DNA of 64,000 bases, taken from NCBI GenBank assembly GCA_900314635.1, contig OMVY01000007.1, positions 1 through 64,000 on the forward strand, read 5' to 3'. Within the stretch, counting starts at the first letter, position 1. Each line of letters starts with the position of its first letter. This DNA is from an uncultured Methanobrevibacter sp. Lineage in GTDB: Archaea > Methanobacteriota > Methanobacteria > Methanobacteriales > Methanobacteriaceae. The notes under the pieces were generated by a model, which saw only the letters and a list, made by a program, of their open reading frames with translations, was not told the DNA's origin and did no database searches. A program made the position numbers and the translations under genes. Below, in pieces: positions 6,048 to 15,157 of this stretch.

Positions 6048-6866
6048 ATGAAAATCAAAAATATTATGTCAGAAAATGTGGTATCTATTGATAAGAACTT
6101 GAACATCTGTGATTGTCTTAGAATGATGTATAAGGACAATTTATCAAGAATACCAGTAACTAGCACCAATGAAAATAAAAAAGAATTGGTTGGTATCATC
6201 TCTGAGAAGGATATAGCTAATAAGTTAGGTTCTGTTAAATATGGTGATCTAGCACCTTCACATTTTTATGTATCAACTGTGATGATTAAGGATTTAATTA
6301 CCGTAGATGCAGATGATGATTTGACAGATGTGGCTAAAATATTGATTGATAAGAATATTGGAGCCATACCTGTAATGTCTGATGGTGAAATGACAGGTAT
6401 TGTAACCAAATCAGATTTCATATATCTTTGCAAGGCCAAGGCTTATGAAAAAGTCAAAGTCAAGGATATCATGTCAACTGATCTCATTTCCGTATCTGCT
6501 GATGACCGTTTGGTTCATGCTAGAAAAGTCATAATGGACTCAGGCATTGGCCGTCTGCTCTTAAGCGAAGATGACGAGCTTGCTGGAATATTGACTTCCA
6601 AGGATATTGCAAAGGCCCTTGTGTCATTTAGAAAACATACAAGCGGCAAGCATATGGCAGCTAAAATCAAAGAGCTTAGGGCAGGAGACTACATGTCTTC
6701 AAACGTTCAAAAGATTTCAGCCGAGGCTACTGTTCCTGAACTTGCGGATGCCATGCTTGAAACAGGATTCAATGGTTATCCTGTTGTAAACAGCCAGGAT
6801 CAGGTTGTGGGAATTGTAACCCAGTCAGACCTTTTGGAATTAATCTATGAAATTGAAACCCAGTAA
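6048..6866 (+). CDS. Protein of four CBS domains
   Basis: A 272-residue protein starting directly with the first CBS domain (MKIKNIMSENVVSIDKNL). Four CBS units lie near residues 1-65, 75-130, 138-190 and 205-270, each closing with a G-I-(V/I/L)-T-(K/Q/S)-x-D type motif. No catalytic domain or membrane segment is present. The site ggggttaaaATG supports the start. It is a paralogue of the neighbouring upstream gene but differs in its N-terminus and in linker length. Such free-standing CBS proteins are numerous in methanogens; ligand and target cannot be read from sequence. Confidence 0.9.
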   Translation: MKIKNIMSENVVSIDKNLNICDCLRMMYKDNLSRIPVTSTNENKKELVGIISEKDIANKLGSVKYGDLAPSHFYVSTVMIKDLITVDADDDLTDVAKILIDKNIGAIPVMSDGEMTGIVTKSDFIYLCKAKAYEKVKVKDIMSTDLISVSADDRLVHARKVIMDSGIGRLLLSEDDELAGILTSKDIAKALVSFRKHTSGKHMAAKIKELRAGDYMSSNVQKISAEATVPELADAMLETGFNGYPVVNSQDQVVGIVTQSDLLELIYEIETQ

Positions 6867-7125: not shown

Positions 7126-7265
7126 TGTTTTTATATTATTTTTTCAATTATTTTTTTCTAAAATCCGTTAATTTTATTTTAATGATTGTATATAATTTAA
7201 TTTGTATTCTAATTGCTGAAATTAGTTCATTTAATTAATTATTCAATTTTAACTTTGGTGATAAA

Positions 7266-8087
7266 ATTAAACCCGTAGCATTTTTAGGTCCTCAAGGAAC
7301 ATTTTCACATGAAGCGGCGTCACTGGTATCCGACGATTTGGTATCATTCTGCTCCATTCCTTCAGTCATGGAGTCTGTTGCAAATGGAGACTGCAAATAT
7401 GGGGTTGTTCCAATAGAAAACTCAATAGAGGGATCAGTAACTCTCACTTTGGATTCCCTGATTCATAATTTTGATTTGAAAATAAGAAACGAGATTGTAA
7501 TTCCAATCAATCACAATCTCCTTGCAGCCCATGATATGGCTGTTGAAAGTGTGAGCGATGTCTATTCACACTCACAGGCATTAGGCCAGTGCCAGCCTTA
7601 TCTTGAAAGGCATGGAATGACTCCTCATTATACTTTAAGCACCGCTGCTGCTGCAAAGCAGGTTGCAGAGTCTGGAGAAGGAGCAGCTATTGGAACACTC
7701 AAAGCCGCCGAGCTTTATGGCCTCAAGGTCATAGACAGAAACATTCAAGAGAAATTCAACAATCAAACAAGATTCATTGTTCTGGATAATGAAGATTCTC
7801 CAATGAGCGGCAATGACAAGACTTCTGTAGCCTTTTCATTATATGAAGACAGGCCTGGAGGATTGTTCTGGCTTTTAGGTATTTTTGCAAGGGAGAATAT
7901 CAACCTGACCAAGATTGAATCACGTCCATCCAAGGAAGGACTGGGTCATTACATATTCTTTGTTGATTTTGAAGGACATAGAATGGATGGTCGAATGAGT
8001 GAAATATTAGAGGAGCTGGATGGCAAGACTTCCTTCTTCAAGGTTTTAGGTTCTTATCCAATTTATTCAGACGAACTTTTCAAATGA
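7266..8087 (+). CDS. pheA: Prephenate dehydratase
   Basis: Converts prephenate to phenylpyruvate in phenylalanine synthesis. The catalytic periplasmic-binding-like fold occupies residues 1-180, with the hallmark VAFLGPQGTFSHEAA near the N-terminus, GVVPIENSIEGSV, and NNQTRFIVL containing the conserved Thr-Arg-Phe. A C-terminal ACT domain follows (SVAFSLYEDRPGGLFWLL, ESRPSKEGLGHYIFFVD), the usual phenylalanine-sensing module. Homology requires the protein to begin before the first ATG/GTG/TTG (TTG at 7338), because the conserved first strand VAFLGPQG is encoded upstream. The only fitting start is ATT at 7266, placed exactly where ATG would stand after ggtgataaa; an in-frame TAA lies at 7236. 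This gives 273 residues, normal for the family. Either ATT is used or a base substitution has weakened the start. Confidence 0.9.
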   Translation: MKPVAFLGPQGTFSHEAASLVSDDLVSFCSIPSVMESVANGDCKYGVVPIENSIEGSVTLTLDSLIHNFDLKIRNEIVIPINHNLLAAHDMAVESVSDVYSHSQALGQCQPYLERHGMTPHYTLSTAAAAKQVAESGEGAAIGTLKAAELYGLKVIDRNIQEKFNNQTRFIVLDNEDSPMSGNDKTSVAFSLYEDRPGGLFWLLGIFARENINLTKIESRPSKEGLGHYIFFVDFEGHRMDGRMSEILEELDGKTSFFKVLGSYPIYSDELFK

Positions 8088-8361: not shown

Positions 8362-9132
8362 ATGAGTCAGGATAAGCAGAAGCTTATGCAAATTTTAAAT
8401 AATCTTGAAAAGGATTATGAAGATGGATTGATTTCCGAAGAGAAATATATTTATCTGTCTAATCAGTATAAGCATAAGATTGAAACTATTGATGTAAGCA
8501 ATAGGATAAGGGCCATGCAAGGTAGAAAAGGCTCTGATGAATCATCTCGTTATGCAAGGGATAGAAATAGAGCACGCAGAAGTCGTGAAGAGGATGAGAA
8601 TCTAGTGCGCAAATACATTCAAAATCCGGAATCCTACACTTTTTCAAAACCTGAAAAGAAAGAGGAAAAAAGCAGTCCATGGTACAGTGTTTTAGCTATT
8701 GTATTCTTACTTGTAGCTTTTGGTGTGGGAATCACCTTTGGAATTTCCACTTTTGGAATCGATGGAAACATTCCGGATATAATTGGTGGAACCGCTACAA
8801 TTAATGATACCGCATTTCCTCAGGTTGTTAAAAATAAAACTGTAGATTCCAATATTACTTATTCCACTACTAAAACGAATTACTCATCTGCAGAAATTGA
8901 TTCTAGTGATTCGGATGATTCAAGTTCATCTTCAAGCAGTTCAATTGATACTGGAGACTCTTCTGATGGAGGTAGTTCCTATGATGGTGGCTCTTCTGGT
9001 GGAGGCAGTTCCTCTGGCGGTGGTTCTTCTGGTGGAGGTAGTTCCTCTGGCGGTGGCTCTTCTGGTGGAGGTAGTTCTTCCGGTGGTGGTTCTTCTGGTG
9101 GAGGTAGTTCCTCTGGAGGGTCTGAAGAATAA
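8362..9132 (+). CDS. Membrane protein with Gly/Ser repeat tail
   Basis: 256 residues in three parts. Residues 1-90 are charged and helical (MSQDKQKLMQILNNLEKDYE...), with a short hairpin segment like those of SHOCT-type oligomerisation modules. One membrane segment lies at about 108-130 (VLAIVFLLVAFGVGITFGI). The region beyond residue 150 is Ser/Asp-rich and then made almost only of Gly and Ser, repeating with an 11-residue period (GGGSSSGGGSS), matched by a 33-nt DNA repeat at about 8980-9110. The tail probably lies outside the cell as a flexible spacer. Start supported by aggagataaaagATG. No enzymatic motif seen; function unknown. The tail is prone to length change by replication slippage. 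Confidence 0.8.
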   Translation: MSQDKQKLMQILNNLEKDYEDGLISEEKYIYLSNQYKHKIETIDVSNRIRAMQGRKGSDESSRYARDRNRARRSREEDENLVRKYIQNPESYTFSKPEKKEEKSSPWYSVLAIVFLLVAFGVGITFGISTFGIDGNIPDIIGGTATINDTAFPQVVKNKTVDSNITYSTTKTNYSSAEIDSSDSDDSSSSSSSSIDTGDSSDGGSSYDGGSSGGGSSSGGGSSGGGSSSGGGSSGGGSSSGGGSSGGGSSSGGSEE

Positions 9133-14806: not shown

Positions 14807-15157
14807 ATGTTATTTGTATACTATCCAAGATGTTCTACTTGTCAAAAAGCTAAAAAATGGTTGGATGAACATGATATTGAGTATGAAGAAAGGGATATTG
14901 TAAAAGACAATCCTCAATATGACGACTTGAAGGAATGGCATGAAAAAAGCGGTTATCCCCTTAAGAAATTCTTCAACACAAGCGGCATGGTCTACCGTAA
15001 GAATAATATCAAGGACAAGCTGCCTGATATGAGCGAGGACGAGCAGTTAAAACTTCTTGCTACTGATGGAATGCTTGTGAAGCGTCCTGTTCTTGTCGGT
15101 GACGATTTTGCGGTTACCGGTTTTAGAGTAAAAGAATGGGAAGAAAAATTATTATGA
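14807..15157 (+). CDS. ArsC/Spx-family thioredoxin-fold protein
   Basis: 116 residues with the family start MLFVYYPRCSTCQKAKKWLDEH, containing a redox C-x-x-C, then IEYEERDIVKDNP, KKFFNTSGMVYR, and the closing MLVKRPVLVGDDFAVTGF with the conserved Arg-Pro of the ArsC fold. This is the YffB/Spx-like branch of arsenate reductase-related proteins; true arsenate reduction is not demonstrated by sequence and no other ars gene is near. Start supported by taggtgataaaATG. Confidence 0.85.
   Translation: MLFVYYPRCSTCQKAKKWLDEHDIEYEERDIVKDNPQYDDLKEWHEKSGYPLKKFFNTSGMVYRKNNIKDKLPDMSEDEQLKLLATDGMLVKRPVLVGDDFAVTGFRVKEWEEKLL

Follow-up and report, generated by a model that had tools for sequence, protein, structure and literature searches.

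The window analysed here, a stretch of 64,000 nucleotides from an uncultured Methanobrevibacter sp., contains a pheA gene that raises the question of where its translation begins. The frame is open from 7239, after a TAA at 7236-7238, to the stop codon at 8085-8087, and ATG, GTG and TTG are absent from it upstream of a TTG at 7338, that is before codon 25. The features of the locus are the following.

6048..6866, + strand: upstream syntenic gene encoding four CBS domains (PF00571), with an ATG start, used as a control
7257..7262, + strand: Shine-Dalgarno sequence GGTGAT of pheA, read directly, in the same register as before the ATG codons at 14807 and 23507
7266..8087, + strand: pheA, prephenate dehydratase with a C-terminal ACT domain (PF00800 and PF01842, both over cut-off)
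7266..7268, + strand: ATT, inferred start codon of pheA, the sole codon in register
7338..7340, + strand: TTG, first canonical codon in the pheA frame, without a Shine-Dalgarno sequence
8362..9132, + strand: downstream syntenic gene without a Pfam match, with ATG in the window

The identity of the product as a prephenate dehydratase follows from the two profiles, which scored above their curated cut-offs (PDT, 197.4 bits, cut-off 25.2; C-terminal ACT, 45.1 bits, cut-off 27). The PDT match reaches the N-terminus of PheA, and the protein is the sole PDT of the genome. The first-pass annotation had placed the conserved first strand of the domain upstream of the first ATG, GTG or TTG, and this was borne out: the strand VAFLGPQGTFSHEAA begins at 7275. 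It had also stated that the ribosome-binding site lies in a context that other genes of the window have in front of ATG. Indeed, GGTGAT and the ATT at 7266 are separated by a 3-nt spacer, and the same register (AGGTGAT and a 3-nt spacer) was found in front of the ATG starts at 14807 (AGGTGATAAAATG) and 23507 (AGGTGATTTAATG), with GTGAT at 3-nt spacing upstream of the start of several other window genes. When the whole genome was scanned for GGTGATNNNATT, 28 matches were obtained, among which pheA alone opens a long frame with no ATG, GTG or TTG upstream or within the 20 codons that follow; the scan, which covers that single form of the Shine-Dalgarno sequence, detected no further gene of this type in the window's genome. 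A search of a phage collection yielded nothing.

The start slot was then compared between those 129 Methanobacteriaceae genomes in which the start of pheA could be assigned. Candidate start-type codons were ranked by a score, and in cases of a weak Shine-Dalgarno sequence (genus groups g12, g15 and g17) the ATG was set by hand. The slot was occupied by ATT in 59, ATA in 20, ATG in 49 and TTG in 1 of the genes. ATT or ATA was present in g3, g5, g6, g7, g8, g9, g10, g11, g13 and g16, which with the window makes eleven genus groups, whereas ATG was found in the window's genus (14 genomes), g12 (19), g4, g14, g15 and g17 and in a minority of g9 (9 of 65) and g13 (1 of 6). The view that ATT is a rare oddity of one strain was wrong: in most of the family's genera, pheA commonly has AUU/AUA. 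The nearest relatives compared (77% PheA identity) belong to a Methanobrevibacter clade of the window's genus. Nearly all members of this nearest clade (M. ruminantium type) have an ATG two codons further upstream (MIKDKVAFLGP), at position -9 instead of -7, and this ATG looks derived. In one g8 genome (G032, locus L171) pheA is split into several pieces with stops and is apparently a pseudogene.

Five tests identify the slot as a start codon, as opposed to part of a spacer or an internal isoleucine codon. In 49 of the 79 near-cognate genes, ATG, GTG and TTG are absent from the stretch that runs from the last in-frame stop to the conserved core, and 7 of the 79 have an in-frame stop directly 5' of the slot. 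A Shine-Dalgarno register test that was blind to the codon picked ATT/ATA in 70 of 89 genomes, against an expectation of 15% from the candidate codons. In g8 the distance from the slot to the core is 16, 17 or 19 codons, and the spacing between the Shine-Dalgarno sequence and ATA is constant. In G131, a g13 genome, ATG stands exactly where its sisters have ATT. Finally, ATC does not occur in the slot (0 of 79), as opposed to 16 of 86 among the isoleucine codons just downstream (p=1.7e-5, a value that, like other p-values here, is indicative only, the genomes being related and not independent samples). Taking these results together, genuine AUU/AUA initiation of pheA that is old in the family, comparable to that of bacterial infC (AUU) and Streptomyces sigR (GUC), is the best reading. 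The pheA gene of the window thus has no plausible ATG, GTG or TTG start, a non-canonical codon in Shine-Dalgarno register and conservation of this state across species (79 of 129 family genomes), and the claim that it starts at the ATT at 7266 is strongly supported; on these sequence data we put its probability at roughly 93 per cent.

Three ways in which this assignment could fail were considered, all of them very improbable. The codon at 7266 could be an ATG misread in sequencing or assembly; with no SSU rRNA found in it, the assembly could be a metagenome bin, and ATG is present in the nearest clade. However, the ATG of that clade sits elsewhere, at -9 and not at -7, and the homologous slot holds ATT or ATA in 79 family genomes from many assemblies, some of them complete; a state kept across many genera is not an error. 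No better is the chance that translation begins at one of the closest canonical codons, either at the TTG at 7338, which would shorten the protein, or at the GTG at 7258, which is out of frame and would have to be followed by a frameshift. The TTG has no Shine-Dalgarno sequence, and a start there would drop a strand that is conserved in all homologues; the GTG lies within the Shine-Dalgarno sequence and its frame ends after six codons; and the 49 genes without a canonical in-frame codon before the core have no such start to offer. Least probable of all is that the gene, having lost its start, is decaying as a pseudogene. Such decay has a precedent in the fragmented pheA of G032, but the PDT and ACT domains of the window's single-copy gene are complete, the frame is open throughout with 77% identity to relatives, and ATT is common to the intact pheA genes of many genera.

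How the codon has evolved was examined on a PheA tree with 70 sequences, on which there were at least 10 changes between AUG and near-cognate starts; the ATT gene of the window is sister to 13 ATG genes. In the outgroup families, TTG is found at position -7 in f2, and TTG also in f4. In f3, the pheA genes of 3 of 8 genomes have no ATG, GTG or TTG and carry CTG at the Shine-Dalgarno register, and in the other 5 of 8 an ATG lies one codon past the CTG (f2 and f3 loci L172-L183); CTG is thus apparently used as the pheA start in f3. Since these outgroup families partly avoid AUG too, a weak pheA start seems to be old in the order and to have been reached via different base changes.

Other genes were inspected as controls. 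ATG was the start in 30 of 30 family members for each of tyrA, aroC and the aIF1 gene (SUI1), and, for the upstream CBS gene, in all 26 distinct relatives that matched over the full N-terminus. Autoregulation of aIF1 through a near-cognate start of its own was rejected on the basis of its 30 ATG starts. No special initiator tRNA carrying AAU or UAU as its anticodon was detected in a search with an initiator anticodon-arm pattern; the single tRNA gene found with an initiator-type arm has the anticodon CAU. The gene downstream of pheA has ATG in the window, g1 and g9, and ATT at the position of the homologues' methionine in four genera (g5, g6, g7 and g8; loci L255-L264), so the near-cognate trait is not restricted to pheA. 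As a background of ordinary genes, approximately 560 kb from two complete relatives were surveyed, and this yielded only a handful of other near-cognate candidates. In G042, the signal peptides of two secreted-type ORFs (L208:7680-12116 and L206:10369-11733, both on the - strand) seem to start at ATT (after GAGGTGTAATT) and ATA, respectively, and neither ORF has a suitable upstream ATG. In G031, a methyltransferase-like ORF (L196:619-1506, + strand) has a perfect AGGAGGTGATC-type Shine-Dalgarno sequence followed by GTA, after which ATG, GTG and TTG are absent for 83 codons.

The mean energy of the Shine-Dalgarno duplex was -10.1 kcal/mol for pheA genes with AUU/AUA, -3.2 for those with AUG, -5.4 for tyrA and -5.9 for aroC, all calculated with a standard archaeal anti-Shine-Dalgarno tail, which was assumed because SSU rRNA was not found in this assembly. 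A stronger Shine-Dalgarno sequence is the expected outcome if pairing offsets a weak start codon. The leader that separates pheA from the CBS stop codon is just about 30-70 nt long in most g9 genomes, with a U-rich tract directly before the Shine-Dalgarno sequence, and this may lower pheA expression further. Many g9 genomes (for example at loci L097, L098 and L086) have an inverted repeat of the GTAGCTAT..ATAGCTAT type between the CBS gene and pheA, followed by the U-rich tract, an arrangement that resembles a terminator or an attenuator.

According to the mechanism that we propose, the Shine-Dalgarno sequence, in its normal register, would set the ribosome on the AUU at 7266, which would be read by the ordinary initiator Met-tRNA (anticodon CAU) with a third-position mismatch. 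The near-cognate start, old in the family, swaps between AUU and AUA and at times becomes AUG, its weakness being offset by the strong Shine-Dalgarno sequence. Initiation at AUU would presumably be slow and would respond to how stringently start codons are selected (aIF1), and therefore the feedback-inhibited PheA would be made in small amounts, a likely consequence. We regard this explanation as a whole as likely, if less secure than the position of the start itself. A weak start makes sense for a feedback-inhibited enzyme of which little is needed, and the reduced or special control of phenylalanine synthesis that had been suggested for this gene is plausible in view of the strong Shine-Dalgarno sequence and the non-AUG starts of the outgroups. 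Whether a low or regulated output of PheA could be the function under selection is, judging from the sequences, evenly balanced.

The main competitor is that AUU and AUA are used without regulatory meaning: demand for PheA may be low, the strong Shine-Dalgarno sequence may suffice, and the third base may simply drift in AT-rich genomes. This is a serious contender, although we hold it to be somewhat short of an even chance. It agrees with the free interchange of AUU and AUA, with the recurrence of ATG and with the number of changes on the tree. Within the near-cognate clades ATG occurs in 10 of 89 genomes, above the expectation from third-base composition alone, and hence nothing points directly to selection against AUG. 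Against drift stand the exclusion of ATC from the slot and the four control genes (tyrA, aroC, aIF1 and CBS), which never leave ATG. Moreover, TTG and CTG in the outgroups represent a different mismatch, and therefore the weak start recurs by several routes. A selected weak start is favoured by the variety of non-AUG codons in the outgroups and by the controls, which keep strictly to ATG.

Near-cognate initiation has parallels in bacteria. As described in PMC5472188, infC, which encodes IF3, has an ATT start in E. coli and ATC in Streptomyces. Like pheA, it has a near-cognate codon with a third-base difference from AUG, conserved between species. In contrast to pheA, whose product is an archaeal biosynthetic enzyme, infC codes for a fidelity factor and thereby controls its own synthesis. 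The gene of the archaeal fidelity factor, aIF1, has an ATG start here (30 of 30), so that the autoregulated fidelity factor of the infC model has no equivalent in it. Moreover, the ATC used in Streptomyces infC is absent from the pheA slot. The Streptomyces sigR gene starts with GTC (GTT in two species) after a conserved AGGAGGTG, a start missed by annotation (PMC5472188). It shares with pheA a non-canonical start that is combined with a long conserved Shine-Dalgarno sequence and kept across the genus with one alternative codon (PMC5472188). It differs in codon, gene and domain of life, and repression by IF3 has been demonstrated for sigR (PMC5472188). Compared with ordinary Shine-Dalgarno-led initiation in archaea, pheA has the same Shine-Dalgarno sequence and spacing, but its codon lies outside AUG, GUG and UUG, the archaeal start codons listed in a 2020 review (PMC7531240). 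A review of 2021 describes non-canonical events in archaea as demonstrated just for elongation and termination (PMC8211752), and Ribo-seq of small ORFs in Methanosarcina mazei gave ATG, GTG, TTG and some CTG starts (PMC11456600). Sulfolobus aIF1 is reported, in work cited in PMC6237735, to disfavour non-canonical starts. No earlier report of a Methanobrevibacter prephenate dehydratase or pheA with an AUU start was found in the open-access literature, although a report outside it may exist.

Conserved AUU/AUA starts are known for very few genes, only bacterial ones in the open-access literature searched, and pheA is a metabolic gene in which such a start has been kept through many archaeal genera. 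For this reason, gene callers limited to ATG, GTG and TTG probably misplace the pheA start in these genomes. The gene is also a natural archaeal substrate for testing how start codons are judged by aIF1 and the ribosome. We tentatively suggest that pheA of the Methanobacteriales may have a deliberately weak start (AUU/AUA, UUG or CUG, depending on the lineage) combined with a strong, compensating Shine-Dalgarno sequence, that its output may follow the stringency of start selection and that it might represent in archaeal metabolism what infC and sigR are in bacteria. The finding thereby offers a concrete hypothesis for how expression of the phenylalanine pathway may be set in methanogens.
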